Source of the DNA: a virus
Virus record (IMG/VR): IMGVR_UViG_3300021964_000006
Coordinates: 1 to 38,802 of that record
Reading direction: 5' to 3' (one strand)
Length of the DNA: 38,802 nucleotides
Made by a program: the position numbers and the translations under genes. Under the pieces are notes generated by a model that saw only the letters and a list, made by a program, of their open reading frames with translations, made no database searches and was not told where the DNA came from. Below are positions 8,835 to 38,595 of the stretch, one piece after another. Every line of letters starts with the position of its first letter. Within the stretch, counting starts at the first letter, position 1.

Positions 8835-9062
8835 ATGAAGTTTAAAGACGCAATAAAATTATTTAATAATAGTGCGAGGGAAATGGGAGAGACTCTAGGT
8901 GTCTCCCAACCTGCAGTTCAGTATTGGAAAAAGACTGGACAGATTCCTAAAGTTCGTCAACAACAGATCGAGTTACTTAAAAAAAATTCTGGTGATAAAG
9001 AATACTGGAGTGATGGTAAGAAAGTTAGTAAGTCTGTATTTTATAAATTAATGAACTGGTAG
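8835..9062 (+). CDS. Cro-like HTH transcription regulator
   Basis: The 75-residue protein resembles small Cro-type DNA-binding proteins: FNNSAREMGETLGVSQPAVQ is a helix-turn-helix, followed by YWKKTGQIPKVRQQQIE, the usual post-HTH segment of the P22-type Cro family. It is the first gene of the rightward transcript, adjacent to the divergent promoters, so it likely represses one or both of them. No CI-type repressor or integrase is present, so a full lysogeny switch is not supported. Confidence 0.75.
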   Translation: MKFKDAIKLFNNSAREMGETLGVSQPAVQYWKKTGQIPKVRQQQIELLKKNSGDKEYWSDGKKVSKSVFYKLMNW

Positions 9063-13298: not shown

Positions 13299-13616
13299 AT
13301 GCAATACGAATTATTAATGGACTACATGGATATGTGGAAACGATATATGAAACACGATAACCACAAACTTGGGTTTCCATCACGAAGTATAGGTATAAAT
13401 AACTCATCATCTACATCATTTGATGATATGATAGAGGAAGCAGATAACGAAATAGTAAGAACAATAAGCGCAGTAGTAGACTCACTAGACAATGAACAAC
13501 GTAAAGCAATATGGGCAAGATGGTTAGGAACAAAGAAACCTATGTATTATGAATTAAAACTACAACTTGCAATAGATAATTTATTAACCATTGTAGGACG
13601 TAGATTAGATTTGTGA
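13299..13616 (+). CDS. Q-like late antiterminator candidate
   Basis: The 105-residue protein has an N-terminal helix (LLMDYMDMWKRYMKHDNHKL), a GFPSRSIGINNSSS turn, an acidic helix (FDDMIEEADNEI), and a C-terminal helical domain (VVDSLDNEQRKAIWARWLG then a basic end). This pattern, with the R-K-A-I-x-x-x-W-L region resembling sigma region 4 or phage Q, is seen in small phage antiterminators. Position is the stronger argument: it is the last early gene and its stop runs directly into a promoter, leader RNA and intrinsic terminator. AGGA precedes the ATG by eight bases. The assignment is inferential. Confidence 0.45.
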   Translation: MQYELLMDYMDMWKRYMKHDNHKLGFPSRSIGINNSSSTSFDDMIEEADNEIVRTISAVVDSLDNEQRKAIWARWLGTKKPMYYELKLQLAIDNLLTIVGRRLDL

Positions 13617-13645
13617 TTGACTTAAAATCGTTTTTCCTGTATAAT
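13617..13645 (+). promoter_or_regulatory. Late promoter, near-consensus sigma-70
   Basis: TTGACT at 13617-13622 and TATAAT at 13640-13645 have a 17-base spacer, the best sigma-70 match seen in the window. It begins right after the Q-like stop codon and points to the leader RNA and structural genes. Confidence 0.85.
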
Positions 13646-13651
13646 TTAGTC

Positions 13652-13752
13652 TTGGTAGGAGAACTCAGCATATAGATTCCATGACGAGGATCTCTCTCTC
13701 TTCTCAATCTCCTCGTCAGTCTCCAGAAAGACCCACTTCGGTGGGTTTTTTC
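13652..13752 (+). ncRNA. Leader or small RNA between late promoter and terminator
   Basis: A transcript from the promoter at 13617-13645 to the terminator at 13731-13751 would be about 100 nt. It contains a perfect 9-base-pair stem, TGACGAGGA at 13682-13690 with TCCTCGTCA at 13710-13718. The 19-base loop is a pyrimidine-rich TCTC repeat. The layout matches lambda 6S RNA downstream of pR', although sequence identity is not claimed. The CU-rich loop could also bind purine-rich ribosome sites. Ends are estimates. Confidence 0.6.
13731..13751 (+). terminator. Intrinsic terminator after leader RNA
   Basis: ACCCAC at 13731-13736, a TTCG loop, and GTGGGT at 13741-13746 form a strong short stem followed by six Ts and more T-rich sequence. 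It would stop most transcripts from the late promoter unless RNA polymerase is modified. It is the only strong terminator between the late promoter and the packaging genes. Confidence 0.85.
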
Positions 13753-13769
13753 TTTTAAAAGGATTAATT

Positions 13770-13826
13770 ATGGCAGGTTGCAAAGGTAAAAAAGGTCGTA
13801 AAGGTTACGGAAAAAAAGGTAAATAA
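13770..13826 (+). CDS. 18-residue basic Lys/Gly peptide
   Basis: AAAGGA precedes the ATG. The product, MAGCKGKKGRKGYGKKGK, is nearly all Lys, Gly and Arg plus one Cys, so it could bind nucleic acid or negatively charged partners. It is the first gene after the leader terminator and the next gene starts two bases later. Such short basic genes are easy to miss; translation is supported by the ribosome site and operon position only. Confidence 0.5.
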   Translation: MAGCKGKKGRKGYGKKGK

Positions 13827-14676: not shown

Positions 14677-15003
14677 ATGACAGACAGAACAGACGCACAA
14701 AAACAACAATTAGAAAACGCTAGAGAGAAGGCTCGAGAAGTCAACAAGGGAAATAATTATTCTAGTAAAAACAATAGGTTACTGAATGATACTCTGAAGC
14801 GTATAATCACACAAGATGATGCAAAACGTGCAAGAAGAATCATGGAAGCATTAGTTGCAAAAGCAGAAGATGGTGACACTAAAGCAATAGATATGGTCTT
14901 AGATCGAGTAGAAGGTAAAGTCGTTCAAGAGAATAAACTATCTGGAGACAGTGAACAACCATTAATTGTTAATGTAGTTACAGGAATTGATGACGAAGGT
15001 TGA
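14677..15003 (+). CDS. terS: Terminase small subunit (TerS)
   Basis: The 108-residue protein is helical and charged (KQQLENAREKAREVN, NRLLNDTLKRI, RRIMEALVAKAEDGDTKAID), ending with VVTGIDDEG. The pattern AKAEDGDTKAIDMVLDRVEGK is that of DNA-recognition small terminase subunits such as the DUF5681-like group. Its gene directly precedes and overlaps the large terminase start by 14 bases. TTTGGAG precedes its ATG. The subunit would select the packaging site. Confidence 0.75.
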   Translation: MTDRTDAQKQQLENAREKAREVNKGNNYSSKNNRLLNDTLKRIITQDDAKRARRIMEALVAKAEDGDTKAIDMVLDRVEGKVVQENKLSGDSEQPLIVNVVTGIDDEG

Positions 15004-16258
15004 TAAAAACACTGGTTACAAACCAAGAGAACATCAAAAATTAATCCATAAGGCGATTAAAGAACATCGTTTTACGGTGGTAGTTGCTCATCGCAGGTTT
15101 GGAAAGACAGTTAGTGCAATTAACCAGTTAATACATAGTGCATCTAAATGCAAAAAGAAGAATCCTAGATTTGCATACATTGCACCAACATATTCACAAG
15201 CAAAACGTATTGCGTTCGATTATTTAAAAGAATACACAAGACCATTAGATGCAATAGTAAACGTTGCAGAACTCAGGGTAGACTTTCTAGATGGACGAAG
15301 AATATCTTTGTATGGTGCTGACAATATTGACTCTCTTCGTGGTATATATCTCGATGGTGTCATAGTTGATGAGATCGGTGATTGTAATCCATCGTTGTTT
15401 AGTGAAGTATTAAGACCTGCACTTGCAGATCGACAAGGTTGGTGTATGTTTATTGGTACACCTAAAGGTGCAAACCACTTCAAGACGTTAAGAGATCGTG
15501 CAGAAAAAGGTGAAGACAACTGGAAACTGTTAGAGTTTAAAGCATCAGAGACAGGAGTCTTACCAGAAACTGAATTAAAGTCTGCATTCAATGAGATGGG
15601 TTCTGATAAATACAATCAAGAATTTGAGTGTAACTTTAGTGCAGCTGTAGAAGGTTCATATTATGGTCAGATCATGAATGAACTAACGTTACAGAACAGA
15701 ATAACAGATATACCATACGATGGTCTTGCAAAGACATTTTGTGCATGGGATTTAGGTATGGGAGATTCTACTGCAATCTGGGTATGTCAGACAGTAGGTA
15801 AAGAGATCAGGTTAATTGACTTTGAAGAGAATCATGGTGTTGGTCTAGATTACTATGTAAGTTGGTTGCAAGGAAAAGGATATAACACTGCAGAACAATT
15901 ACTACCACATGATGTGGAGGTAAGAGAGTTAGGAACAGGTAAGTCTCGTAAAGAGATGTTAATGGAATCAGGATTACAAATTACAGTAGTTCCTAAACTA
16001 GGTATAGACGATGGTATTCAGTCAGTAAGAAGAATATTACCTCGTTGTTGGTTCGATATAAAAACAAGACAGGGTATAGATGCACTACGCAACTATAGAC
16101 GTGAATACGATGAGAAACGTGACGTATTTTACAATAAACCTGTACATGACTGGTGTTCTCACGCATCAGATGCTTTCAGATACCTTGCAGTTGGGTTAGA
16201 TGAAGGTACTGAGGAATGGAACAGACCATTACAAATAAACAATTCATGGGTAGTTTAA
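14990..16258 (+). CDS. terL: Terminase large subunit (TerL)
   Basis: The 422-residue protein has a packaging ATPase domain with Walker A AHRRFGKT at 33-40, YIAPTYSQAKRIAF at 63-76 and Walker B VIVDE at 124-128. The C-terminal nuclease domain has AWDLGMGDSTAIW (an acidic metal ligand) in the middle and DWCSHASDAFRYLA near the end with the final Asp. It pumps and cuts DNA with TerS at the portal. The ATG at 14990, with AGGA four bases upstream, is preferred over a TTG one codon earlier. The portal gene follows at the next base. Confidence 0.95.
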   Translation: MTKVDKNTGYKPREHQKLIHKAIKEHRFTVVVAHRRFGKTVSAINQLIHSASKCKKKNPRFAYIAPTYSQAKRIAFDYLKEYTRPLDAIVNVAELRVDFLDGRRISLYGADNIDSLRGIYLDGVIVDEIGDCNPSLFSEVLRPALADRQGWCMFIGTPKGANHFKTLRDRAEKGEDNWKLLEFKASETGVLPETELKSAFNEMGSDKYNQEFECNFSAAVEGSYYGQIMNELTLQNRITDIPYDGLAKTFCAWDLGMGDSTAIWVCQTVGKEIRLIDFEENHGVGLDYYVSWLQGKGYNTAEQLLPHDVEVRELGTGKSRKEMLMESGLQITVVPKLGIDDGIQSVRRILPRCWFDIKTRQGIDALRNYRREYDEKRDVFYNKPVHDWCSHASDAFRYLAVGLDEGTEEWNRPLQINNSWVV

Positions 16259-18364
16259 ATGGCAGATGACAATAAATTAAAGAGTATTCTAGACTCAGAG
16301 ATAGATGACGCAATTGGTTATTTAGAAACTGAGACGACTGACGAAAGACAGAAGGCATTAGAATATTATCTAGGCGAACCTTACGGTAACGAGGTAGAAG
16401 GCAAGTCTCAAATTATTACAAGAGAAGTAGCAGAAGTAGTAGACGGCGCGCTTCCTCAATTGCTTAGACCATTTACCACATCTGACGATTCTGTTGTATT
16501 CGAAGCAGTAAATCAAGGTGACGAAGAGAAAGCAGAACAAGCAACACTATATGTAAACCATATATTCAATAAAGACAACAATGGTTTTGAGATCATGCAC
16601 GATTGGTTTAAAGACGCATTGTTACAAAAAGTTGGTGTAGTTAAAGCATACTGGGAAGACAAGACAGATGTAACTAAAGAAAAGTATTATGGTCTTAATG
16701 ATGACGAACTTGCGATGGTTATGCAAGACCCAGAAGTAGAAGTAGTAGAACAAGACACAACAATTGTTCAAGAAGCGCAGTTTGATCCAATGACAGGTAT
16801 GCAAATATCACCTGCAATGTCTGCACACGATATCAAAGTAAAACGTACTGTAAATGGTGGTAAAGTTGTTGTAGAAAATGTACCACCGGAAGAATTCTTA
16901 ATTAGTAAACGAGCAAGATCTATTGCAGATTCTCCTTTTGTTGCACATCGTAAGATGGTAACTCGTGGTGAATTGATTGCAATGGGTTATGATGAAGACA
17001 CAGTATATTCTCTACCTACAGGTGACGCATTAGAGTTCTCTCCAGAAAGAATTGCACGTTATACAAGAGGTGAACAACCTTCTGATATGGACTCAGACGA
17101 TGAGACTATGCAATTAGTTGAATATTATGAGTGTTATCTGAAGACAGATTACGATGGCGATGGTATCGCAGAGCATAGAAGAGTATGTTACGCAGGTACA
17201 GAAATACTACATAACGAAGAATGTGATTATGTTCCATTCCATTCATTATGTCCTATTCCTATTCCTCATAAATTTTATGGTCATTCACTTGCAGATCGTG
17301 CAATGGATATACAATTAATTAAGTCTACAATTACACGTCAAATGTTAGACAATTTATATCTAACAAACAATTACAGAGTAGGCGCAGTAGAAGGTCAGGT
17401 TAATTTAGATGACTTACTAACGTCAACTGCAGGCGGTGTGGTTCGTATGAAGAACCCAAATGCTATTGTTCCAATGACAGTACAAAGTAATGCAGCTCAA
17501 TCATTCCCAATGTTGCAATACTTAGATGAAATACAAGCAAAACGGAGTGGTGTAAGTGACACACAACAAGGTTTAAATCCAGATATATTACAAAACGTAA
17601 CTGCAACTGCAATCAGTGCAATGCAATCTGCATCTCAAGGTAAGTTAGAGTTAATATCTCGTATCTTTGCAGACACCGGTGTATCAAGTCTATTTAAAGG
17701 TATTTTACAACTTGTATGTAAGTACCAACAAAAAGAAAGAATTGTTCGTGTAAACAATAAATACATTCCATTTGACCCAAGAGAATGGTCACATGAATAC
17801 AATATCTCTGTTAATGTTGGATTAGGAACAGGCTCCAAGCAAGAACAGTTAGCAACCATGCAGATGATCCTCGATAAACAAGAGCAGATTATAACCCAGT
17901 ATGGATTGTCTAATCCTCTAGTCAATCTTAAACAATACAGAGATACTCTTGCAAAATTTGTGCAAATGGCAGGATTCAAAGATGACAGTCAGTTCTTAAT
18001 GGAAGTGTCAGAAGAACAAGCACAAATGTTAGCACAACAACAAGCACAGGCAGGACAGTCTAACCCACAAGTAGAGGCTGCACAAGCACTTGCACAAGTT
18101 GAACGTGAAAAAGCACAATTAAGAGCGCAAACAGATAGTGCGAAACTACAGTTAGATCGTGAAACAATGCAGTTAGAAAATGAACGTAAAGCATTAGAAT
18201 TACAACAAAAAGAAGTACAACAAACTGCAGATCTTGCGTTAAAAGAGTTAAAGATTAGACTTGATGCAGACAATGATGACAAGAAAACGAAGACAGATCA
18301 AACTAAAATGATTATGGAAGCGTTAGATAAGATCAATAATATTGCAACAAGAGGTATGCAGTAA
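16259..18364 (+). CDS. Portal protein (head-tail connector)
   Basis: The 701-residue protein matches large podovirus portals: DDAIGYLETETTDERQKALEY at the start, VDGALPQLLRPFTTSDD, FKDALLQKVGVVKAYWED, VPPEEFLISKRARSI, the crown and stem region near FHSLCPIPIPHKFYGHS, and SGVSDTQQGLNPD. The last 120 residues are a Gln/Ala/Glu-rich coiled coil, likely the barrel. It forms the dodecameric vertex through which DNA is packaged and ejected. It begins at the base after the terminase stop and overlaps the next start by one base. Confidence 0.95.
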   Translation: MADDNKLKSILDSEIDDAIGYLETETTDERQKALEYYLGEPYGNEVEGKSQIITREVAEVVDGALPQLLRPFTTSDDSVVFEAVNQGDEEKAEQATLYVNHIFNKDNNGFEIMHDWFKDALLQKVGVVKAYWEDKTDVTKEKYYGLNDDELAMVMQDPEVEVVEQDTTIVQEAQFDPMTGMQISPAMSAHDIKVKRTVNGGKVVVENVPPEEFLISKRARSIADSPFVAHRKMVTRGELIAMGYDEDTVYSLPTGDALEFSPERIARYTRGEQPSDMDSDDETMQLVEYYECYLKTDYDGDGIAEHRRVCYAGTEILHNEECDYVPFHSLCPIPIPHKFYGHSLADRAMDIQLIKSTITRQMLDNLYLTNNYRVGAVEGQVNLDDLLTSTAGGVVRMKNPNAIVPMTVQSNAAQSFPMLQYLDEIQAKRSGVSDTQQGLNPDILQNVTATAISAMQSASQGKLELISRIFADTGVSSLFKGILQLVCKYQQKERIVRVNNKYIPFDPREWSHEYNISVNVGLGTGSKQEQLATMQMILDKQEQIITQYGLSNPLVNLKQYRDTLAKFVQMAGFKDDSQFLMEVSEEQAQMLAQQQAQAGQSNPQVEAAQALAQVEREKAQLRAQTDSAKLQLDRETMQLENERKALELQQKEVQQTADLALKELKIRLDADNDDKKTKTDQTKMIMEALDKINNIATRGMQ

Positions 18365-18900
18365 TGTTAATTGACTTAGGATTGCAAAGAAAAGCACCTA
18401 ATATTGTAGTTGCTCCTCAACCTGCAGTGGATAGAGATGCTATTCTAGGATTAATTCCAAGTCAATATGATGGTTTAAAGCAAGTTAGAGATACTGATTA
18501 CTACTATGGTAACAATCGTATGTATGAACCATACACAATAACATCTAGTCCTTCATATTACGGAGGATACTACGGTGCAGGTAAAGGTGGTGGTTCTAAT
18601 CGTGCAGAAGGCACTTTAGAAGTAGGTGACCAAGCATTTAGACCTGTTGATGTAGATGTTACAGGATTTAGTAAAACAAAAGGTGACAATGACATATATT
18701 CATATGACCCATCTATGGCATATGTGTTATCTCAGACACCAAAACCTAAACCAGTACAAACACCAAATGTTACATCATTTTTATCATCACCAACTGCAAA
18801 CACTTATGTAGGTAGTTATGGCACAGATAGATTTACACAAGGAAATGGATTACTAGGATTTGACTTTGGTCTACCTAGTGGAAAATCTGCAAATGAATAA
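18364..18900 (+). CDS. Hypothetical structural-module protein
   Basis: The 178-residue protein is Gly, Tyr and Ser-rich (YYGGYYGAGKGGGSN) with a Pro/Gln middle (QTPKPKPVQTPN), so it is probably disordered and could be a virion component. The start overlaps the portal stop (TAATG). There is no recognised domain. Confidence 0.6.
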   Translation: MLIDLGLQRKAPNIVVAPQPAVDRDAILGLIPSQYDGLKQVRDTDYYYGNNRMYEPYTITSSPSYYGGYYGAGKGGGSNRAEGTLEVGDQAFRPVDVDVTGFSKTKGDNDIYSYDPSMAYVLSQTPKPKPVQTPNVTSFLSSPTANTYVGSYGTDRFTQGNGLLGFDFGLPSGKSANE

Positions 18901-19123
18901 ACAAGACATAATAAAAGGCATTTTAGAAACACCAGAATTTCAAGACATAATCAACGAGTTAAGAGAAAACCAACTCAACGGTATTAGATACTCTACACCA
19001 TCTGATAAAGATGCTAGAGAAACCTTTTACATGAGATTACAAGTCTTAGACGAAATCATGAACTATCTTGAATCTATCGCTAAAGACAGCGAGATTAAAG
19101 ATAAAGCATGGAAGATATTATAG
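18893..19123 (+). CDS. Small helical hypothetical protein
   Basis: The 76-residue protein from ATG at 18893 is helical (NKQDIIKGILETPEFQDII, then TFYMRLQVLDEIMNYLESIA). The start overlaps the previous stop by eight bases. It lies between the portal and scaffold genes, so it may help capsid assembly. No family is recognised. Confidence 0.6.
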   Translation: MNKQDIIKGILETPEFQDIINELRENQLNGIRYSTPSDKDARETFYMRLQVLDEIMNYLESIAKDSEIKDKAWKIL

Positions 19124-19173
19124 ACTTTTCTATAATGGTAACCTCTACCTAAGAGGAACATTAAGGAAATACA

Positions 19174-20184
19174 ATGAGTGAAGAAACCATGACTCCTGAA
19201 CAAGGAAGTGGAGAACTAACTGTACGAGATGCAGCTACTGCGTTTGAAGGCATCTTATCAGCAGGTGAGGACTCTACAGAGCAACCAGAAACTGTTGATC
19301 AAGAAGTTGAAGAAACAGTAGAAGAAGATGTATCAGAAGATGAAGATGAAGTTGTAACTGAAGATACTGAACTCCAAGATGAAGGTGATGAAGAAACCGA
19401 AGTCGAAGAAGAGGAACTCGAAGAAGAAACTCAACGCTTTACAGTAAAAGCTGCAGGCGAAGAGAAAGAAGTGACCCTCGATGAATTGATGCAAGGTTAT
19501 CAACTTGGTGCAGACTATACTAAAAAGACTCAAGAAGTCGCAGAGCAACGCAAAGCTGTAGAAGCAGAACGTAATGCGATACTAGAGGCAAAACAAGTTA
19601 GGGATCAATACGCTCAACGGTTAAACGCAATGGAACAGTTCTTGATACAAACTCAAGACAGACCAGAAGATTTAGCCGCAATGAAGGAAAACGACCCAAT
19701 AGGATATGCAGTTAAAGTCGCAGAACTTACTGAGAAAAAAGAACAGTTGGATAAAGTTCGTGTTGAACAACAACGCATTGCACAACAGCAACAAGCGGAG
19801 TATCAACAACAACTTCAACAACGAGCTCACGAGGAAGCGCAAAAACTTTCACAAGTCCTACCAGAGTTTTCAGACCCAACCAAAGGCGAACAACTCCGAA
19901 GTGAGATTCGTAACTACGGTAAGAGTGTAGGTTTTTCAGATGAAGAATTAGCAAACGTATACGATTCTCGTCATGTATTAATGCTACACAAAGCGATGCA
20001 ATACGATAAACTTCAAAAATCTAAACCGTCAGTAACCAAAAAGGTTGCACAAGCACCTAAGATGGTTAAGTCAGGTACTAAAATTAAAGAGGGTAATCGT
20101 GATGTTCGCAAACGACAAATGAATAAGCTTAAGCAATCTGGCAAAGTCAGAGACGCCGCGGCTCTTTTTGAAAACTTTATTTAA
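19174..20184 (+). CDS. Capsid scaffolding protein
   Basis: The 336-residue protein has an acidic Glu-rich N-terminus (about 30-90), a long Gln/Glu coiled-coil middle (about 115-235, for example QQRIAQQQQAEYQQQL), and a basic C-terminus (RDVRKRQMNKLKQSGKVRD). This charge order and its place just before the capsid gene are typical of scaffolds that guide procapsid assembly through a basic C-terminus. AAGGAAAT precedes the ATG. Confidence 0.85.
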   Translation: MSEETMTPEQGSGELTVRDAATAFEGILSAGEDSTEQPETVDQEVEETVEEDVSEDEDEVVTEDTELQDEGDEETEVEEEELEEETQRFTVKAAGEEKEVTLDELMQGYQLGADYTKKTQEVAEQRKAVEAERNAILEAKQVRDQYAQRLNAMEQFLIQTQDRPEDLAAMKENDPIGYAVKVAELTEKKEQLDKVRVEQQRIAQQQQAEYQQQLQQRAHEEAQKLSQVLPEFSDPTKGEQLRSEIRNYGKSVGFSDEELANVYDSRHVLMLHKAMQYDKLQKSKPSVTKKVAQAPKMVKSGTKIKEGNRDVRKRQMNKLKQSGKVRDAAALFENFI

Positions 20185-20201
20185 TAAGGAAGTGAATAAT
20201 C

Positions 20202-21158
20202 ATGGCAACATATAAACAATATGACGTAGCAGGTGATCGTGAAGATCTATCTGATGTCATTTATAACATCTCTCCAACAGACACACCATTTATGTCTTCT
20301 GTTGGTAAAACTAAAGCTACTGCAGTTCTGCATGAATGGCAAGTAGATAGCTTAGCAGCCGCAAACGGTTCTAACGCAGCTGTTGAAGGCGCAGACGCAA
20401 CTTCTGCAACATTATCTCCAACAACACGAGTTGGTAACAGAACTCAGATTTCACAAAAAACTATCCAAATCTCTGGCACTTTAGAGTCAGTTGATAAGGC
20501 TGGTCGTAAATCTGAAAAAGCATATCAATTAAGCAAAGCATCTGCTGAACTTAAACGAGATATGGAAAAAATCCTTTTATCAAACCAAGTTGCAGCTGCA
20601 GGTACAGGTGGTGGTTCACCAACTGCAAGAACTTTAGGTGGTTTACAAGCATGGATCAACACTAACGTATCTTTAGGTACATCTGGTGTTGCAGGTTCTT
20701 TAGGTACTACTGCAAAAGTTGACGGTACTAATCGTGCATTTGATGAAGATCAACTTAAAGAAGTAGTTCGTGAAGCATACACAGCAGGTGGTAACCCATC
20801 AGTTGTTATGTTATCTCCTGCTAAGAAACAAGAGTTCTCTGCATTTGCAGGTATCGCAGAACAAAGATATATGGCTCCAGCAAACAAACAATCTACTATT
20901 GTAGGTGCGGCTGACATTTATCTAAGCGATTTCGGTACATTATCTGTTGTTCCTAACAGATTCATGACTGCAGAAGCAGACTCAGGTGAAGTAGCATTTG
21001 TATTAGACCCAGAATATGCAGCTATTGCATACTTACGCCCATTCCAAACTAACGAATTGGCAAAAGCTGGTGACAGTGAAAAAACACAACTTTTAGTTGA
21101 ATACACACTAGAAGTTAAAAATGAAGCTGCACATGGTCTAATCGGTGACTTAACATAA
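20202..21158 (+). CDS. Major capsid protein, SU10/DUF5309-like
   Basis: The 318-residue protein matches the SU10 major capsid family (DUF5309): DLSDVIYNISPTDTPFMSS near the start, EWQVDSLAAAN, QISQKTIQISGTLE, AELKRDMEKILLSNQ and, near the end, VEYTLEVKNEAAHGLI. It forms the HK97-fold shell. AAGGAAGTGAATAATC lies before the ATG. A terminator follows the gene, so the capsid message is likely made in excess over the tail genes. Confidence 0.95.
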   Translation: MATYKQYDVAGDREDLSDVIYNISPTDTPFMSSVGKTKATAVLHEWQVDSLAAANGSNAAVEGADATSATLSPTTRVGNRTQISQKTIQISGTLESVDKAGRKSEKAYQLSKASAELKRDMEKILLSNQVAAAGTGGGSPTARTLGGLQAWINTNVSLGTSGVAGSLGTTAKVDGTNRAFDEDQLKEVVREAYTAGGNPSVVMLSPAKKQEFSAFAGIAEQRYMAPANKQSTIVGAADIYLSDFGTLSVVPNRFMTAEADSGEVAFVLDPEYAAIAYLRPFQTNELAKAGDSEKTQLLVEYTLEVKNEAAHGLIGDLT

Positions 21159-21165
21159 GGATATT

Positions 21166-21191
21166 GACCCTCTTCGGAGGGTCTCCTTTTT
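21166..21191 (+). terminator. Intrinsic terminator after capsid gene
   Basis: GACCCTC at 21166-21172, a TTCG loop and GAGGGTC at 21177-21183 give a perfect seven-base stem followed by TCCTTTTT. Downstream genes have no clear promoter, so this is likely a partial terminator that sets capsid expression above tail genes. Confidence 0.8.
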
Positions 21192-21200
21192 AGGATTGTT

Positions 21201-21518
21201 ATGGCAAAATTATTAAATAAAGATGAGTTTAAAACACAAACTGCATATAATACAGACGATGGACAGATAGTCATTGCAACAGAACAAGATGTTACAGACA
21301 TTATTGAACAAAACAAAAAAGAATACAACGCAACAAATGGTCGTTGGAAGGAAGATGTACTATCAAACAAGATTGCATCTATCCCAATGACTGTAATCGA
21401 CACATTAAATAAAAAAGGAATCATGAAGGGTTTCGATGTAGTAGATCAAAAGAAATTCAGAGCATGGTTAAACGACCCAGATAACAGATTCTTTAGGACA
21501 CGACAAGGTAGAGTATAA
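21201..21518 (+). CDS. Hypothetical head/tail-joining-region protein
   Basis: The 105-residue protein shows a polar N-terminal half and a basic end with KKFRAWLNDPDNRFFRTRQG. TTAGGA precedes the ATG. It lies between capsid and tail adaptor, where head-completion proteins occur, and its stop overlaps the adaptor start by one base. No family is recognised. Confidence 0.6.
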   Translation: MAKLLNKDEFKTQTAYNTDDGQIVIATEQDVTDIIEQNKKEYNATNGRWKEDVLSNKIASIPMTVIDTLNKKGIMKGFDVVDQKKFRAWLNDPDNRFFRTRQGRV

Positions 21519-22141
21519 TGGCATTTAGTAACTATTCTGATTTAAAAAGCACGATAGCAGATTATCTTGCTCGTAATGACCTTACGACACAGATACCTGA
21601 CTTTATTCGTCTTGCAGAAGAAAGATTGCGTAGAGAGTTAAGAATTAGACAGATGTTAAAAGTTGCAACTGCATCTACTGCATCAGATGATTCAACAGTG
21701 TCATTACCTGCAGACTTTCTCGCAATGAAAGAAATACACATCGACTCTACACCAGTAGGTATATTAACATTTCAAACAACATCAAACTTTTTTAATAACG
21801 CAAGAGTTACAGATAAAGGTAAACCGGTATTTTATACATTACTAGGTAGTGAGTTCCAATTTGCTCCTATACCTGACGCAGTGTATACACTTAGAATGGT
21901 GTATTACTATAAACCTGATTTCTTATCAAATACAAATACATCTAATCTATTTTTAGCTAATTGCCCAGATTTATTGTTGTATGGTGCATTAGCAGAAGCA
22001 GAACCTTATCTCATGAACGATGAAAGAGTCCAAACATGGGCTGCATTGTATGAAAGAGGTTTACAAGCACTAAGAACAAGTGATGATGACAGTGAGTTCC
22101 CATCAGCACCAATGGCAATAACTTTATCTAGAAAACATTAG
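21518..22141 (+). CDS. Tail adaptor (SU10-like)
   Basis: The 207-residue protein reads FSNYSDLKSTIADYLARNDL, IPDFIRLAEERLRRELRIR, LPADFLAMKEIHID and YTLRMVYYYKPDFL. This is the characteristic order of short-tailed phage adaptors that bind the portal and start the tail. The Ser/Asp-rich end (SDDDSEFPSAP) is typical too. It follows directly on the preceding stop. Confidence 0.85.
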   Translation: MAFSNYSDLKSTIADYLARNDLTTQIPDFIRLAEERLRRELRIRQMLKVATASTASDDSTVSLPADFLAMKEIHIDSTPVGILTFQTTSNFFNNARVTDKGKPVFYTLLGSEFQFAPIPDAVYTLRMVYYYKPDFLSNTNTSNLFLANCPDLLLYGALAEAEPYLMNDERVQTWAALYERGLQALRTSDDDSEFPSAPMAITLSRKH

Positions 22142-22150
22142 GAGTAAACA

Positions 22151-22537
22151 ATGGCAGAATTTAGTAATTATTTAGAGAACGCAGTTATCAACGCAGTTCT
22201 CAGAGCAACAACTTATACAAGTCCTACAACGGTCTATGTAGCATTATTCACCACAGATCCCACAGATGCTGATACTGGCTCTGAAGTATCTACAGGTTCA
22301 TATGCAAGAACATCAGTAACATTTAGTGCGCCTTCTAACGGTGTAACAAGTAACTCAGCAGATGTTGAATTCCCACAAGCAACTGCGTCTCAAGGTACAA
22401 TCACGCACATAGGTCTATATGACGCATTAACTAGCGGTAATTTATTATTCCATACTCCGCTTGATGTGCCTAAGACTATTGATTCTGGTGACATTTTTAA
22501 GATCGCTACAGGCAACTTAACAGTAACATTAGCATAA
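22151..22537 (+). CDS. Tail/head decoration protein, Gp80-like fibre domain
   Basis: The 128-residue protein begins AEFSNYLENAVINAVLRATT and has TVYVALFTTDPTDADTGSEV, YARTSVTF, and a beta-rich end with ITHIGLYDALTSGN. This is a common small beta-sandwich protein of phage tail modules, often labelled tail fibre protein. It lies between adaptor and tail fibre genes. Confidence 0.75.
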   Translation: MAEFSNYLENAVINAVLRATTYTSPTTVYVALFTTDPTDADTGSEVSTGSYARTSVTFSAPSNGVTSNSADVEFPQATASQGTITHIGLYDALTSGNLLFHTPLDVPKTIDSGDIFKIATGNLTVTLA

Positions 22538-22553
22538 CGTTTAACGTTAAACG
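22538..22553. repeat. Perfect 16-base palindrome in intergenic gap
   Basis: CGTTTAAC followed by GTTAAACG is a perfect dyad with no spacer, lying immediately after the stop of the small tail protein gene. There is no T-tract, so it is not a normal terminator. It may be a protein-binding or cleavage site. Confidence 0.7.
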
Positions 22554-22567
22554 ATAAAGGATAAACA

Positions 22568-23059
22568 ATGGCATTTGTCATTAAAGACAGAGTAAAAGAG
22601 ACCACAAACACTACCGGAACTGGCACAGTAACACTAGATGGTGCTTCTGACGGTTTTCAGTCTTTTAGTGCAATTGGTGACGGTAATACAACTTATTACA
22701 CTATAGTCAACCAAACAGACTGGGAAGTTGGTATTGGTACATATACTGCAAGTGGTACTACTTTATCTAGAGATACTGTATTAGAGTCTTCTAACTCTGG
22801 TAGCAAAATTAATTTATCAGGATTAAGTGATGTATTTGTTACATATCCTGCAGAAAGAGCCGCAATACAGAACAGTTCAGAACAAGTCGTATCTGCACCT
22901 CACTTAGAAGCAAACAATGGGATCATTGCTCATAACTCAACAATTACATCTAACTATACTGGCCCTAGTGGTCATAATTTATTATCAGTTGGCCCAGTGG
23001 TGGTCGACACAGGAGTAACTGTGTCTGTGCCAGCAGGTCAAAGATGGTTAGTATTATAG
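22568..23059 (+). CDS. Virion-attached beta-rich structural protein
   Basis: The 163-residue protein has an N-terminal domain common to phage tail modules: RVKETTNTTGTGTVTLDGAS, FSAIGDGNTTYYTIVNQTD, WEVGIGTYTASGTTLSRD and DVFVTYPAERAAI. The last part is a beta-rich GPVVVDTGVTVSVPAGQRW. Such proteins usually connect fibres to the tail. It is followed directly by the first large fibre gene. Confidence 0.75.
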   Translation: MAFVIKDRVKETTNTTGTGTVTLDGASDGFQSFSAIGDGNTTYYTIVNQTDWEVGIGTYTASGTTLSRDTVLESSNSGSKINLSGLSDVFVTYPAERAAIQNSSEQVVSAPHLEANNGIIAHNSTITSNYTGPSGHNLLSVGPVVVDTGVTVSVPAGQRWLVL

Positions 23060-23066
23060 GATTATT

Positions 23067-24413
23067 ATGACAAGTAAGATTAATGCAATTACAACTGGAT
23101 CAGGTGGCATAGAGGTCACAGGTGATTCTAGTGGTGAAATAGAATTACAAGCAGATGGTTCTACCATTGCAACTATTACATCTAGTGGTTTATCTTTAAC
23201 AGGAACTTTACCAATCGCAGATGGCGGAACAGGTCAATCTACTGCAAGTGATGCAAGAGCTGCATTAGGATTAGAAATAGGAACAGATGTTCAATCATAT
23301 GATGCGAATACTGCAAAATACAACGACACTACTGCAAACTTTACTGGAACATTACAAACAAGCGGTAATCAAGTAGCAACACAGAATGCTTTAGGTGTAC
23401 GCAATCTTATCATCAATGGTGATATGAGGATTGACCAAAGGAATGCTGGAGCGAGTGTTAGTTCTAATAATTCATACGCTGTAGACAGATTAAGAAATGT
23501 ATTTACTTCTAGTGGTTCTTTTACAGCTCAACAATCAACTACTGCTCCTGATAATTTTACTAATTCAGTTGTATGGACAGTTGGTTCAGCAGCTTCTGCA
23601 ACATCATCACAAGTTGCTAATATGCAGTATAGATTAGAAGGTAATACACTGTATCAATTAGGACTTGGTACATCAGCTGCTAAAACGATGACATTATCAT
23701 TTTGGGTTCGCTCTAGTGTGACTGGTACTTATTGTGCTGCTTTTATTAATAGTGCTGCTGATAGAGCTTACGTTGCAGAATACTCAATTTCTTCTGCTGA
23801 CACATGGGAACAAAAATCTATTACTCTTACTGGTGACACTTCTGGAACATGGTTAACTACAAATGGTATTGGATTAAGAATACAGTTTGATTTAGGTTCT
23901 GGTTCTGATTATAACGCAACTGCTAATACATGGGTGGGAGCGAATGATTTTAGAACAACAAACCAAACAGATTTTATAAACAATGCTGGTGCTACATTCT
24001 ACATCACAGGTGTCCAACTAGAAGTAGGTGACACAGCTACACCATTTGAACACAGACCTTATGATATGGAGTTAGCAAGATGTCAGAGGTATTATTATAA
24101 ATATTTAGAAGGAGCTTCAAAAGGAATTGGTGTTAGTGCAGCTTTTACAGGCACTACTATTTATACTTTTGCAAATCTAAAAATTTCTATGAGAGCAACA
24201 CCTTCTTTAGACCATACTACAGGATTAAACTATTATTTATATTTAGGTAATAATATTGCGGATTCTTTTGATAACTTTAATTTGTGGTCTGAAACTCACA
24301 GTGAAGCAGTAGGTCTTTTTGCAAACACCAATGTATCACCAACACAAGGTCAAGCTGGTATGATAACATCTCAAAACGCTTCTTCTTATGTAGCATTTAG
24401 TGCGGAGTTATAA
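23067..24413 (+). CDS. Tail fibre protein with carbohydrate-binding-like C-terminus
   Basis: This 448-residue protein has a repetitive N-terminal stalk with TLPIADGGTGQSTASDAR and DVQSYDANTAKYNDTTANF. A domain follows that starts IINGDMRIDQRNAG, contains LSFWVRSSVTGTYC and ends with TGVQLEVGDTATPFEHRPYD, a pattern known from phage fibre tips and sugar-binding beta-sandwiches. The last 100 residues are less regular. It probably binds the host surface. Its AKYND...NFTGT stalk is shared with the next large fibre gene. Confidence 0.8.
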   Translation: MTSKINAITTGSGGIEVTGDSSGEIELQADGSTIATITSSGLSLTGTLPIADGGTGQSTASDARAALGLEIGTDVQSYDANTAKYNDTTANFTGTLQTSGNQVATQNALGVRNLIINGDMRIDQRNAGASVSSNNSYAVDRLRNVFTSSGSFTAQQSTTAPDNFTNSVVWTVGSAASATSSQVANMQYRLEGNTLYQLGLGTSAAKTMTLSFWVRSSVTGTYCAAFINSAADRAYVAEYSISSADTWEQKSITLTGDTSGTWLTTNGIGLRIQFDLGSGSDYNATANTWVGANDFRTTNQTDFINNAGATFYITGVQLEVGDTATPFEHRPYDMELARCQRYYYKYLEGASKGIGVSAAFTGTTIYTFANLKISMRATPSLDHTTGLNYYLYLGNNIADSFDNFNLWSETHSEAVGLFANTNVSPTQGQAGMITSQNASSYVAFSAEL

Positions 24414-24414
24414 T

Positions 24415-24585
24415 ATGACAATAAGATATAAATTAGTAAACAATCCAATTACCAATACAACTGGCTCTATTAACAAAATTACAGAAGGGCGAATTGTATG
24501 TATACCACTAGACGAAGCTAATACAGACTACCAAGAATATCTAGAATGGGTAGCAGAAGGTAACACACCAGAGGAAGCAGAATAA
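24415..24585 (+). CDS. Small fibre-associated protein
   Basis: The 56-residue protein starts one base after the fibre stop and contains PLDEANTDYQEYLEWVAEGN. A similar Y-Q-x-Y-L-E-W segment occurs in the small protein at 32464-32616, so the two are likely related. Small proteins next to fibres often act as chaperones; this is inferred. Confidence 0.6.
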   Translation: MTIRYKLVNNPITNTTGSINKITEGRIVCIPLDEANTDYQEYLEWVAEGNTPEEAE

Positions 24586-25874
24586 TGGCAAAGATTACGA
24601 TTAAAGGCGATACATCAGGTGAGGTAGATATAACTGTCCCTGCTATTGCAGGATCAACGACATATAATCTATCTACATCAGGTGGTAATGTATTATCTGA
24701 TAATGATATTGGAACAACAGTTCAAGCACATGATGCAAATATTGCTAAATATAATGATTCAGTTGCAAACTTTACTGGCACATTTCAACATAATGGAAAT
24801 CCAGTCGCAACACAGTCTTATGTAGACACAGAAGTTGGTGCAATATCAGTAACACCAACACAAGTATCAGATCAAGTAAATACATCTACTGGATACTTTG
24901 ACCTACCTGCAGGAACTACTGCACAAAGACCTGCAAGTCCTGCATCTGGAATGATCAGACATAACACAACTACAGGTTCTCCTGAATGGTACGATAACGG
25001 TTCTGGAAGTTGGATCAATTTTAATGCTTCTGCTCCGTACAATGTAGATTTTTTAGTTGTTGCAGGTGGTGGTTCTGGTGGTGCTCATGCAGGGTCTGGT
25101 GCAGGTGCAGGGGGGTATAGAACATCTTATGGAACAGGAAATATATCAGGTGGAGGTGGTGCAGTAGAGTCTGCATTACAATTTACACCTAGCACTGTTT
25201 ATACAATTACTGTAGGAGGTGGTGGAGCTGCAGTAGGAAACGCAAATGGTAATAGTGGTGCAAATTCATCTATATCTGGTTCAGGTATATCCACAATCAC
25301 ATCAATAGGTGGTGCAGGTGGACGAGGCGGTGCATCACAAGGAGCAGGTTTTGCAGGAGGTTCTGGCTCTGGTGGATCTGCAGCTTCTGGAACATTAAGC
25401 CCTGCAGGAGGTGCAGGAACATCTGGTCAAGGTTACGCAGGTGGTGCAAACAACGCAAACTGGGGAACTGGTGGAGGCGGTGGTGCAGGTGCAGTAGGTA
25501 ACAATGGTTCAGGTTCTTCTGCAGGTAATGGTGGTGCAGGACAAGCATCATCTATTAGTGGATCATCTGTAACTCGTGCTGGTGGTGGTGGTGGTTCTGG
25601 ACAAACTGGGCCTGCTGGTTATGGTGGTGCAGGCGGTGGTGGTAATGGTAACGGCAATAATGCTTTAGGCTCTGAAAGCGGTGGAGCAAACACTGGTGGT
25701 GGTGGAGGTGGTAGACACAGTTCTGCAGGAGCTGCAGGTGCAGGTGGTTCAGGTGTAGTTATTCTTCGTATACCTACTGCAAGTTACTCAGGAACACAGT
25801 CAGGTGCATCTGTAACTACAAGCGGATCAGACACTATTCTTACATTTAATTCATCAGGCACTTACACAGGATAA
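24585..25874 (+). CDS. Gly-rich tail fibre/adhesin
   Basis: The 429-residue protein has an N-terminal stalk with VQAHDANIAKYNDSVANF (related to the previous fibre), a module TTAQRPASPASGMIRHNTTT, then a long poly-Gly region from about 150 to 385 (for example GGGGAGAVGNNG) starting VDFLVVAGGGSGG. A short cap follows, PTASYSGTQSGASVTTSGSD. Poly-Gly layouts like this form receptor-binding tips in gp38-type adhesins. It overlaps the previous stop by one base. Confidence 0.8.
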   Translation: MAKITIKGDTSGEVDITVPAIAGSTTYNLSTSGGNVLSDNDIGTTVQAHDANIAKYNDSVANFTGTFQHNGNPVATQSYVDTEVGAISVTPTQVSDQVNTSTGYFDLPAGTTAQRPASPASGMIRHNTTTGSPEWYDNGSGSWINFNASAPYNVDFLVVAGGGSGGAHAGSGAGAGGYRTSYGTGNISGGGGAVESALQFTPSTVYTITVGGGGAAVGNANGNSGANSSISGSGISTITSIGGAGGRGGASQGAGFAGGSGSGGSAASGTLSPAGGAGTSGQGYAGGANNANWGTGGGGGAGAVGNNGSGSSAGNGGAGQASSISGSSVTRAGGGGGSGQTGPAGYGGAGGGGNGNGNNALGSESGGANTGGGGGGRHSSAGAAGAGGSGVVILRIPTASYSGTQSGASVTTSGSDTILTFNSSGTYTG

Positions 25875-25877
25875 AGT

Positions 25878-27431
25878 ATGGCAACAATAATTAACGGCAC
25901 AACAGGTATTGATAAAATACAAGATGAAGTAGTCATTACTGGTACTGGTGGGGTTACTGTACCTTCTGGCACTACTGCAGAAAGACCATCAAGTCCATCA
26001 ACTGGTATGTTGAGATTTAATACCGATAAGAACATTTTAGAGCAATATAATGGAACAGTATGGAGAGAAGGTTATTCTCCTGCTCCAGAAATTACATCTG
26101 TATCACCTACTGACTTTGATGGTGAATCTGGAACTACTATTACAATTAATGGTAATTATTTTAGTTCAGGTGCAGTAGTACAATTTAAGAAAACTGGCGG
26201 AAGTTATGCAAATGGCACAAATATATCATTTATAAACTCAAACCAAATAACTGCAGATACTCCAGAAAATTACGATCTAACAGAATCTCCAGTATCAGTA
26301 AAAATTGTTCAAGATTCAGGTAGTGATGAATCATTAGATGCAATTACAATGGGTGCTGCTCCTGTATGGTCAACAGCATCTGGAACATTATCAACAGTTA
26401 ATGAAGGTTCTGCAGTAAGCACATCTGTAACAGCAACAGATGATGGTTCTATTGCATCGTATACAGTAACAGCAGGTGCATTACCAAGTGGGGTTACATT
26501 AAATACATCAACAGGTGCAATCACAGGAACTGCTCCATCTGTAACATCTAATACAGTTTATAACTTTACAATTACAGCAACAGATAATGTAGGCAATACA
26601 ACAGATAGAGCATTTAGCATTACAGTAAATAATATTAACTATACTGTTAGTTACCTAATGATTGCAGGTGGTGGTTGTGGTGGAGGTGGAGGTGGTTCTC
26701 CTGTAAATATGACTGGCGGTGGTGGTGCAGGTGGTTTACGAACAGGAACACAATTACTCACATTGGGTACTACATATAGTTTTACAGTCGGAGGTGGTGC
26801 TTATGGAACATCTACAACAAGAGGTGGAAATACAACTGGATTTGGATTAACCTGTATTGGTGGTGGAATGGCATTTTATTCAGGAACAGGTTCAAGTGGG
26901 GGTTCTGGAGGCGGTTCTGGTTGTGGTGCTGGAGCCACTTATGGAGCAGGAACTTCAGGACAAGGAAATAGAGGTGGAACAAGCCCACTGCAAAACAATA
27001 ACTGTGGTGGTGGCGGAGGAGCTTCTGCCGTAGGTGGAGCAGCTGCACCAACTACAGGTGGCGGTGGTGCTGGTGGAACAGGAGCTGCTTCTTCTATTAC
27101 AGGCTCTACTGTTTATTATGCTGGTGGAGGCGGTGGTGGTACTCGTTATAATTACCCTGCAGGAGCAGGAAGCACTGGTGGTGGAACAGCAGGTGAAAAT
27201 GTTCATGGAGTTCAACCTGCTACTCCTAGTGCAAACTTGGGTGCAGGTGGCGGTGGTTTTGGATTTAATGGTGGAGCAACAGTACCAAGCAATAGCGGTG
27301 GCTCTGGTGTGGTAATACTTTCTATACCAACTGCAAGTTATTCAGGAACATATACAGGAACTGTTACTGTTACAACATCAGGTTCTAATACGATATTAAA
27401 ATTTAGAGGCTCAGGTTCTTATACCGCATAA
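25878..27431 (+). CDS. Gly-rich tail fibre with IPT/TIG and Ig-like domains
   Basis: The 517-residue protein has the GTTAERPSSPSTGMLRFNTD module, an IPT/TIG-like domain (PEITSVSPTDFDGESGTTIT), then a cadherin/Ig-like domain (TVTAGALPSGVTLNTSTGAI with TATDNVGNTTDRAFSITV). A poly-Gly region begins LMIAGGGCGGGGGG at about 260. Its C-terminal cap, PTASYSGTYTGTVTVTTSGS, is nearly the same as the cap of the previous fibre. It should be a surface-exposed adhesin. Confidence 0.8.
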   Translation: MATIINGTTGIDKIQDEVVITGTGGVTVPSGTTAERPSSPSTGMLRFNTDKNILEQYNGTVWREGYSPAPEITSVSPTDFDGESGTTITINGNYFSSGAVVQFKKTGGSYANGTNISFINSNQITADTPENYDLTESPVSVKIVQDSGSDESLDAITMGAAPVWSTASGTLSTVNEGSAVSTSVTATDDGSIASYTVTAGALPSGVTLNTSTGAITGTAPSVTSNTVYNFTITATDNVGNTTDRAFSITVNNINYTVSYLMIAGGGCGGGGGGSPVNMTGGGGAGGLRTGTQLLTLGTTYSFTVGGGAYGTSTTRGGNTTGFGLTCIGGGMAFYSGTGSSGGSGGGSGCGAGATYGAGTSGQGNRGGTSPLQNNNCGGGGGASAVGGAAAPTTGGGGAGGTGAASSITGSTVYYAGGGGGGTRYNYPAGAGSTGGGTAGENVHGVQPATPSANLGAGGGGFGFNGGATVPSNSGGSGVVILSIPTASYSGTYTGTVTVTTSGSNTILKFRGSGSYTA

Positions 27432-27682
27432 TGGACATTAAAGATTTACTAAATTTATATTATATTGATGGTGAATATAGGTTTGGAATAGACACTGTTA
27501 TGGAGACATTATGTCCAAATTGTTTGTATTCAGTCAGCACTGAAAATGGTAATTTTGATATTGTTGAATGGAATGATAATAACGAAGTTGAAAAACCTTC
27601 ATCTCAACAAATAAGAGATGAGTATATAAGACAACAAACAATTAAAGAAATTTTAGATAAATATATTATAGAGGAAAATTAG
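27431..27682 (+). CDS. Small fibre-region protein (XkdW-like possibility)
   Basis: The 83-residue acidic protein has NGNFDIVEWNDNNEVEKPSS and a helical C-terminus (IRDEYIRQQTIKEILDKYI). The pattern resembles small XkdW-type tail chaperone proteins. It starts at the last base of the fibre stop codon. The function is inferred from position. Confidence 0.55.
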   Translation: MDIKDLLNLYYIDGEYRFGIDTVMETLCPNCLYSVSTENGNFDIVEWNDNNEVEKPSSQQIRDEYIRQQTIKEILDKYIIEEN

Positions 27683-27683
27683 T

Positions 27684-28070
27684 ATGTCGCATTTTGCAAA
27701 AGTTCAAGATGGTATTGTTGCTGAAGTTATAGTTGCAGAACCAGAATTTTTTGAAACATTTGTTGATGATTCAGCAGGTGAATGGATACAAACATCTTAC
27801 AATACAATGGGTGGAAATCATTACACAATGCAAGAAGATGGAACAAGAATTTTATCTGAAGATCAATCTAAAGCATTAAGAAAAAATTATGCAGGTATTG
27901 GTTTTACATATGACCATATCAGAGATGCTTTTATTCCTCCAAAACCTTTTGAGTCATGGACATTAAATGAAGATACTTGTTTATGGGAAGCACCAGTTGC
28001 AATGCCTGATGACGGTCAAATGTATCTATGGAATGAAGAAAACCAAAACTGGACATTAGTAACTGAATAA
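27684..28070 (+). CDS. Conserved virion-module protein
   Basis: The 128-residue protein begins MSHFAKVQDGIVAEVIVAEP and contains WIQTSYNTMGGNHYT, SKALRKNYAGIGFTYDHIRD and FESWTLNEDTCLWEAPV. This set of motifs is widespread in marine T4-like and other phages and is beta-rich. Its role is not established; it is probably a tail or fibre component. Confidence 0.75.
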   Translation: MSHFAKVQDGIVAEVIVAEPEFFETFVDDSAGEWIQTSYNTMGGNHYTMQEDGTRILSEDQSKALRKNYAGIGFTYDHIRDAFIPPKPFESWTLNEDTCLWEAPVAMPDDGQMYLWNEENQNWTLVTE

Positions 28071-28723
28071 TGTTTGGATTAGCCTCATTTTCACAAGCAC
28101 CTTTATCATCACTAGGTAGTTCTACAAAATTTGGTGTAGGTAATGTAAATGCAATAGCATCTACAACTGCATCATATAATAGAATTAGAACATTTGATGG
28201 CTCAATATCTGCAAACGGTCTTGTATCGTCTAATGCAATTAGAGTCAGAACATCTAACGGTAATATTAATGGTGTTGGAAATGCAGATGTTACATACATC
28301 AGGATCAGAGATCATAATGCTTCTATTAATGGTACTGCATTTGTAAGAACTGATGGTTTATCACTGGCATTTGCATCAGGAGCAATATTTAGTAATGTTT
28401 CAGTTACTACTGACGGAACAAGGGTTAGAACATATGCAGGATCAATCAATGGACAAGGAAGTGCTAGTGCATTAGGCGGTTTAATCTATTCTGGTGATGG
28501 TCAGGTTCATGCAACAGGAACAGTAGTAGCATTACCAAGTGCAGTATGGTGGGCAAATGCTGATACAGAAGGTAATGGGACAATAACTGCATCAGGTATA
28601 GTATTAGGTGAAGAATGGGGTGATAGTTCTACAGGAACTGAAACTTGGACAGATTCATCTACAGGTAGTGAAATATGGGTGGAAGATCCACCTGAATCAA
28701 ACACATGGTTAAGACAAGGATAA
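28070..28723 (+). CDS. Repetitive beta-rich fibre protein
   Basis: The 217-residue protein has a repeat of about 20-25 residues (IRTFDGSISANG, IRVRTSNGNINGVG, IRIRDHNASINGT, RVRTYAGSINGQG) that would form a beta-helix or stack. The end is Trp/Thr/Ser-rich (GTETWTDSSTGSEIW). It overlaps the previous stop by one base. A fibre shaft or tip role is likely. Confidence 0.7.
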   Translation: MFGLASFSQAPLSSLGSSTKFGVGNVNAIASTTASYNRIRTFDGSISANGLVSSNAIRVRTSNGNINGVGNADVTYIRIRDHNASINGTAFVRTDGLSLAFASGAIFSNVSVTTDGTRVRTYAGSINGQGSASALGGLIYSGDGQVHATGTVVALPSAVWWANADTEGNGTITASGIVLGEEWGDSSTGTETWTDSSTGSEIWVEDPPESNTWLRQG

Positions 28724-28726
28724 TAC

Positions 28727-29521
28727 ATGGCAAAAACAAAGCTCTCAGAATATAATTCTACTGCTAGCAGCAATACTGATATAGACGGTATCAATATTAA
28801 TGAAGGCTGTACGCCTTCTGGGATTAATAATGCTATTCGTGAGGTAATGGCTCATTTAAAAGACTTTCAAGCAGGAACTGTTACAGGCAACTCATTAGCA
28901 ATTGCATCTGGTGGTACAGGTGCAGAAAATGCAACTACTGCACGAACAAATCTTGGAGCTGCAAAGTCTGGTGCTAACTCCGACATTACATCTTTAACTG
29001 GACTAACAACTGCATTATCAACTGCACAAGGTGGTACAGGCGTAACCAGTATATCTGCATTGGTAACATCACTAGGTTTAGATACAACCAGTGATGCACA
29101 ATTTGATTCATTAGGTATAGGCACAACTGCATCAGGAACAACTGGTGAGATTCGTGCAACAGGAAACATTACTGCATATTATTCAGATGACAGATTAAAA
29201 ACAAAGCATGGCAACATTACAGAAGCTCTTAAAAAAATTAATACATTAAATGGATTCTATTATAGTGCTAACGCAACTGCACAAGCATTAGGATATGAAC
29301 CTAAAAAAGAAGTCGGTGTATCTGCACAAGAAGTCAATGCAATTATGCCTGAAGTTATTTCACCTGCTCCAATAGATGAACAATATCTTACTGTAGACTA
29401 TGCAAGATTAGTTCCATTATTAGTAGAAGGCATCAAAGAATTAAGTACAAAGGTTAAACATTTAGAGAAAGAGTTAGAAGCACATAAAGCTGTAGAACAT
29501 TGTTCTTGCGAGGAGAAGTAA
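28727..29521 (+). CDS. Tail fibre with peptidase S74 intramolecular chaperone
   Basis: The 264-residue protein has an N-terminal tail-attachment-like segment (CTPSGINNAIREVMAHLKDF), stalk repeats (GGTGAENATTARTNLGA, GGTGVTS), then an S74 chaperone domain from about 150: YYSDDRLKTKHGNITEALKK, LNGFYYS, EVGVSAQEVNAIMPEV and DYARLVPLLVEGIKEL. In this family the Ser of the SDDRLK box (Ser153) takes part in self-cleavage after fibre trimerisation. A coiled coil and a Cys-rich tail (CSCEEK) end the protein. Confidence 0.85.
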   Translation: MAKTKLSEYNSTASSNTDIDGININEGCTPSGINNAIREVMAHLKDFQAGTVTGNSLAIASGGTGAENATTARTNLGAAKSGANSDITSLTGLTTALSTAQGGTGVTSISALVTSLGLDTTSDAQFDSLGIGTTASGTTGEIRATGNITAYYSDDRLKTKHGNITEALKKINTLNGFYYSANATAQALGYEPKKEVGVSAQEVNAIMPEVISPAPIDEQYLTVDYARLVPLLVEGIKELSTKVKHLEKELEAHKAVEHCSCEEK

Positions 29522-29522
29522 T

Positions 29523-32134: not shown

Positions 32135-32460
32135 TGGGTGTTAGTAGATATAGACGATTACAACCACAGTATGCAGATACTCGTGAAATTGCAGAAATCA
32201 CAAATCAAATACTAAGTGGTAAAACTAATAACACAGGCGAAATGGAGTTAAACGATAGTGCAACTTCTACAACAATTAATGATGAACGAGCAGGTTTTAA
32301 TTCATTTATATTGTTTATGCCTTTAACTGACCATGCAGCCGTAGAAGTTCCTTATATGTATGTTAGCACAAGAAATAAAGGTAGTTTTACAATTACACAT
32401 AGGAATCATGGCGGTGGTCATGTAAACGATTTGCAGTTTATGTATGTTATAATAGGGTAG
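32134..32460 (+). CDS. Small structural protein
   Basis: The 108-residue protein has REIAEITNQILSGKTNNTG and a beta-rich rest (SFILFMPLTDHAAVEVPYMY). Similar small proteins lie beside nozzle genes in related phages. It could be a fibre-attachment or tail component. Confidence 0.65.
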   Translation: MGVSRYRRLQPQYADTREIAEITNQILSGKTNNTGEMELNDSATSTTINDERAGFNSFILFMPLTDHAAVEVPYMYVSTRNKGSFTITHRNHGGGHVNDLQFMYVIIG

Positions 32461-32463
32461 GTT

Positions 32464-34958: not shown

Positions 34959-34967
34959 GGATAAGTA

Positions 34968-36440: not shown

Positions 36441-36452
36441 AAAGGAAAATAA

Positions 36453-38531: not shown

Positions 38532-38532
38532 T

Positions 38533-38595
38533 ATGGCACGATTTAAACTTACCGCCTATAAACTTATACAACGCACCAAAAAGAAAGGACAATGA
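38533..38595 (+). CDS. 20-residue basic peptide
   Basis: MARFKLTAYKLIQRTKKKGQ is a very short basic product whose ATG follows the preceding stop by one base; AGGA lies upstream. Its stop overlaps the next ATG (ATGA). Translation is plausible from spacing but is not proved. Confidence 0.4.
   Translation: MARFKLTAYKLIQRTKKKGQ

Follow-up and report, generated by a model that had tools for sequence, protein, structure and literature searches.

We find that the 38,802-nt stretch of DNA analysed here (the window), from a short-tailed aquatic phage, very probably carries a Q-type late switch, in which a putative 105-aa antiterminator would act on a strong promoter and a terminator placed ahead of the late genes. 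The locus appears to be an aquatic form of a type of control that is already known, a small branch that is apparently undescribed, and we found no paper describing the module in phages of the OM43 type or their relatives. An order of Q gene, pR', leader and tR' is the best reading of the locus because homologues of the protein are annotated as Q, the layout is like that of phage 21, and the arrangement recurs in relatives, including some whose protein gene lies away from the promoter. The argument is strongest in that protein, promoter and terminator occur together, and weakest on the DNA binding site and on a pause element in this particular phage. The features of the locus and its surroundings are collected in Table 1.

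Table 1. Features of the putative late switch and of the early and late regions around it in the window.
Feature	Position	Strand	Basis or remarks
Cro-like regulator, first gene of the rightward early operon whose last gene is the Q-type gene	8835..9062	+	P22_Cro, E = 1.5e-5, below its cut-off
Putative 105-aa Q-type antiterminator gene	13299..13616	+	ORF, homologue family, predicted structure; TGA stop at 13614-13616
Late promoter, pR'-like, TTGACT-17-TATAAT	13617..13645	+	11/12 consensus positions; recurs in relatives; -35 at 13617-13622, -10 at 13640-13645
Start of transcribed region, TTGGTAGGAGAACTCAGC	13652..13669	+	Diverged copy of the relatives' TTGGGATA..GCGYC; candidate sigma-dependent pause element
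9-bp leader hairpin, lineage-specific	13682..13718	+	MFE fold (ViennaRNA); arms 13682-13690 and 13710-13718
Intrinsic terminator, tR'-like, TTCG loop and T-run	13726..13756	+	ViennaRNA fold, -14.0 kcal/mol; hairpin core ACCCAC-TTCG-GTGGGT at 13731-13746, T-run at 13746-13756
First late ORF, 18-aa basic peptide (MAGCKGKKGRKGYGKKGK)	13770..13826	+	Sequence
Small-terminase-like gene and large terminase; packaging genes begin	14677..16258	+	TerS-like 14677, TerL 14987
Portal, scaffold, capsid, tail and internal genes	16259..38759	+	SU10-type portal 16259, SU10-type MCP 20202

The original prediction had described a small helical gene followed at once by a consensus-like promoter, a leader of about 100 nt with a 9-bp stem, and a terminator with six base pairs, a TTCG loop and a T-run, with all packaging and structural genes beyond it. 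These elements were recovered at the locus: the 105-aa ORF is confirmed and its AlphaFold model is all-helical, the -35 box abuts the stop codon and stands 17 nt from the -10 box, the terminator folds as described, and the packaging and structural genes all lie downstream on the + strand. Transcription is predicted to start at about 13652, some 75 nt before the terminator stem and 100 nt before the end of the T-run. The leader thus has the length and, in the ViennaRNA fold, the stem that had been described, but the stem is lineage-specific; it is found in L005 with a G-C pair changed to A-T and is missing from the leaders of distant relatives.

Chance pairing of promoter and terminator is rare. 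In the window only one promoter of at least 10/12 on either strand has a terminator within 250 nt downstream, and it is the late promoter. In 40 dinucleotide shuffles, pairs with a promoter of at least 11/12 did not occur, and those with at least 10/12 occurred 0.15 times per shuffle. There is no further + strand promoter match of at least 10/12 between 13645 and 27432. Peptides similar to the 18-aa product of the first late ORF are encoded right 3' of the terminator in L002, L089, G013 and G005.

A repeat is common to both ends of the window, which makes it probable that the genome is complete and either circular or terminally redundant. Given such a genome, the + strand late genes run from 13770 through 38759 to about 4207, with the lysis-type genes past the circular junction (holin at 2177, peptidase M15 at 2548) coming last. 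The divergent early operons meet at the Cro-like gene (8671-9062), where no repressor was recognised, and NinB- and Ref-like genes follow it; the phage has an early region like that of lambda and no recognised lysogeny genes. The earlier remark that no lysogeny genes are visible is consistent with our scan of part of the window ORFs, in which we recognised the Cro-like gene and neither a repressor nor an integrase. Within the late operon, a strong terminator (GACCCTCTTCGGAGGGTC, T-rich) lies at 21166-21190, directly 3' of the major capsid gene, and readthrough would be expected there under a Q-type switch; in G033 a promoter-like -10 and a hairpin likewise follow the capsid gene (34900-34945). 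Separately, the window encodes a TET-associated glycosyltransferase domain beside the early genes (11652-12911; PF20691, E = 4e-39) and a 2OG-Fe(II) oxygenase-like protein in the late region (32598-33083), genes that may possibly serve DNA base modification.

Relatives of the 105-aa protein number well over 100 in viral contigs. In annotated phages (tblastn) they include, at 41-45% identity, Venkman gp37, labelled “antitermination-like protein” (45%), and a ctXG6705 protein labelled “phage antitermination protein Q” (42%); for both homologues there are labels only, and no regulatory module is described. Venkman infects one marine Methylophilales host (OM43), and its short tail has been seen (PMC8163748). 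The bacterial and archaeal genome collection that we searched held no relative and hence no prophage carrier. Pfam gave no match for the window protein, and hence none to any lambda-Q-type model, and neither this protein nor the family alignment gave anything significant in Pfam, PHROGs or PDB sequence searches. With PF06530, which is the Pfam Q family, the best relatives score 16.4-16.6 bits, under the curated cut-off of 26 bits, and other relatives weakly match Sigma70_r4_2 (L201, E = 0.00096). Compared directly, our family alignment A4 is collinear with 13 PF06530-type proteins that include phage 21 Q, the match being weak (Prob 18%, P = 0.0013); this comparison set consisted of named phages, a scan of viral contigs having yielded only identical E. 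coli copies.

The predicted structure points to phage 21 Q (21Q). Two AlphaFold models agree on an N-terminal helix, a long flexible loop and sigma-region-4-type helices; in the window protein (pLDDT 81) the loop, at residues 20-40, is flexible or disordered and lies between helix 1 and a sigma-R4-like helical core. Foldseek matches in the PDB were mostly sigma region 4 domains, with no E-value better than 1 and TMt up to 0.64, and the 21Q structure was not among them. In 21Q, helices 3-6 have a sigma-region-4 fold, the second helix and its flanking loops form a ring in the RNA exit channel, and W26 and V27 are reported contacts to the beta-prime dock of RNA polymerase (PMC6606751). Helix 1 of the present family has an invariant W13 and M17 and an aromatic residue at position 16 in 25 of 26 sequences; when aligned by eye, W13-x-x-aromatic16-M17 falls on W23..W26-V27 of 21Q, which would put the aromatic-hydrophobic pair in the same place. 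The check proposed with the original prediction, Q-family profiles and a predicted structure, thus gave a profile score below the PF06530 cut-off and a sigma-R4-like predicted fold, as in 21Q. Judging from sequence and model, there is a good probability that the protein works like 21Q, and a relationship by descent is likely, if not proven.

The likeness to phage 21 extends to the layout. In the annotated phage 21 record, the Q stop is followed 7 nt on by the -35 box. Next come the repeats to which Q binds and the -10 box; a pause element occupies +2 to +8, with the terminator immediately after it. Our module shares with phage 21 (21Q, 162 aa; pR'21, tR'21) the order of Q gene, strong promoter with its -35 after the stop, terminator and late genes; its early transcribed sequence may hold a -10-like or pause region as well. 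It differs in its smaller proteins (105-108 aa, below the PF06530 cut-off), in leaders of about 40-85 nt ahead of the hairpin where phage 21 has almost none, and in that no TGAGCA-type direct repeat is recognised. Its early transcribed motif is TTGGGATA..GCGYC, and its carrier phages lack a recognised repressor or integrase. The switch was originally taken to be lambda-like, and it does share with lambda Q/pR'/tR' and its 6S leader a constitutive promoter, a leader, a terminator and, putatively here, late expression that depends on the protein. A Q-type late switch is supported by homologues, layout and recurrence; the protein, however, has no sequence relation that we found to lambda Q and is predicted to be of the 21Q type, and the two have different folds (PMC6606751). 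AlpA of Pseudomonas aeruginosa and GafZ of the Caulobacter gene transfer agent offer a further parallel. Both are antiterminators that use an element within or close to the promoter to act on a terminator further downstream, and both are described as not homologous to Q proteins (PMC7969949, PMC11150451).

At least ten other diverged lineages have the module. In L002, L005, L007, L020, L037, L089 and L091/L095, a strong promoter lies no more than about 20 nt past the protein stop, and a short leader, a terminator (here covering a terminator-like hairpin with a T-run) and the late genes come next. EBPR podovirus 1, which is GC-rich, has an identical order with a longer gap of about 45 nt, and the complete module of ctXG6705 has a 12/12 promoter that overlaps the stop codon. 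Scans that found the module elsewhere detected none in Venkman, where gp37 is not adjacent to one. The promoters match 10-12 of the 12 consensus positions in most lineages, and a terminator of varying sequence is kept between promoter and late genes in every lineage compared.

We also scanned viral contigs with DNA patterns only, using the promoter plus TTGGGATA (the motif at +1 to +11) and no protein information. The scan returned 80 loci, with 30 distinct proteins among them and many of the contigs closely related. Where the flank was sufficient, a terminator was present at 46/46 of these partly redundant loci with a family gene just upstream versus 4/29 without (Fisher 5e-16), and the TGA stop codon is part of TTGACA in 37 scan loci. 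Of the four exceptions, which have a terminator and no family gene, three belong to a single lineage, where the promoter stands ahead of a small-terminase-like gene. In four short contigs (L185, L191, L198 and L202), the promoter and early element stand before a small-terminase-like gene and downstream of an unrelated 131-aa ORF, and no Q-type gene lies within the contig; these phages probably encode the protein elsewhere, as G020 does.

In several larger related contigs the protein gene lies apart from the module, and promoter, element and terminator still precede the first late gene. The module lies 1.9 kb downstream of the protein gene in G013 and 0.75 kb from it in G005, which has a weak -35; in G020 and in G033 (again with a weak -35) the protein gene is on the opposite strand, about 7 kb and about 8 kb away. 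The protein must act in trans, since its gene can lie elsewhere, even on the opposite strand, in genomes whose late genes are preceded by the module.

For the Q-type switch we propose the following course of events. Throughout infection, the host's RNA polymerase, carrying its main sigma factor, would start at the late promoter and, without the protein, would halt at the terminator (13731-13756), about 100 nt on. As polymerase lingers at the beginning of the transcribed region, the 105-residue protein, supplied by the rightward early operon, would bind at or near the late promoter and then join the polymerase. Its flexible loop (residues ~20-40) may thread into the RNA exit channel in a nozzle mechanism, as in phage 21 Q, and the modified polymerase would ignore the terminator and read the late genes.

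Candidate loading signals lie just past the transcription start. In several relatives the early transcribed region consists of TTGGGATA followed by GCGYC, and the window's own copy (TTGGTAGGAGAACTCAGC, TTGGTAGG) matches this element in part. An exact TGGGA occurs in the early transcribed region of 5/11 lineages (P = 8e-9), and a CGYC a little further on is found in 7/11 (P = 3e-8), both P values being indicative since some modules belonged to the set in which the motif was first noticed. Polymerase may pause at this element. Inspecting the aligned promoters by eye, including the -35/-10 spacer, we saw no convincing direct repeats for Q binding. It is conceivable, though rather unlikely, that the proteins form a minimal antiterminator family of their own. 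Such a family would be loaded through TTGGGATA..GCGYC, as DNA or nascent RNA, instead of a site in the -35/-10 spacer, and its members would control in trans the late genes of many aquatic phages without visible lysogeny genes. Many leaders of L167-L246 (for example L201, L212, L091 and L037) also carry a C/T-rich TCTCCGTA or CTCCGTT just 5' of the terminator.

The sigma-R4-like fold could instead belong to a late activator that recruits polymerase, with the terminator limiting early readthrough or leaking, and we consider this improbable. Such folds are common among RinA/ArpU-like activators, and BFVD matches include proteins named as transcriptional activators. One relative, L024, weakly matches the transcriptional activator phrog_248 (E = 0.037), with phrog_79, which is Q-like, slightly behind (0.068); this is the sole trace of a RinA/ArpU-type profile that we met. 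However, promoters as close to consensus as those of most lineages should need no activator, the terminator is kept in every compared lineage despite its differing sequence, and the homologues are annotated as Q.

It is very improbable that the leader RNA is itself the switch, as an attenuator, riboswitch or processive RNA antiterminator, and that the adjacent protein is unrelated to it. The conserved early transcribed sequence, the TCTCCGTA-type motif in many leaders and the structured leader of a sister clade (below) would suit such a switch, but Rfam gave no match for the window and four related loci, leader structure differs between lineages, and the promoter module and protein family co-occur too strictly. 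Two specific candidates were rejected: a conserved leader hairpin, as the 9-bp stem is confined to the window clade and TGGG/CCCA pairing occurs in some lineages only, and a leader-peptide attenuator, as neither L005 nor the freshwater group has an equivalent of the 25-codon ORF that spans the window leader from 13681 on. Although intrinsic terminators leak, and lambda 6S-like RNAs arise in this way, an incidental layout in which a strong constitutive late promoter and a weak terminator yield a small RNA with no protein-dependent readthrough is most improbable given that protein, promoter and terminator recur together in many lineages from GC-poor to GC-rich.

A Q-type switch at this locus would provide an account of late-gene control for a large group of aquatic phages, with relatives infecting OM43-type Methylophilales, and would place a lambda-type late switch in phages without recognised lysogeny genes. 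The very small Q protein, with its defined promoter, early transcribed element and terminator, is suited to structural and in vitro work, and the pattern of promoter plus element is a DNA signature by which late operons can be located in viral contigs.

Lastly, a set of sister phages, with TerL about 66% identical to that of the window, has a different and highly conserved late leader (L094, 5304-5485; L096; L097, 1300-1482; L098, 3634-3817; L099; L101-L104). No Q-type gene occurs in the upstream stretch covered (about 1 to 7 kb), and these phages may possibly use an RNA-based late switch or one with another protein. Their promoter is TTGAC[A/G]-17-TATAGT, with a terminator-like hairpin about 25 nt past the start. 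An RNA of about 110 nt follows, which has no match in Rfam and is structured, with one compensatory pair change from GAGGC/GCCTC to GAGGT/ACCTC.
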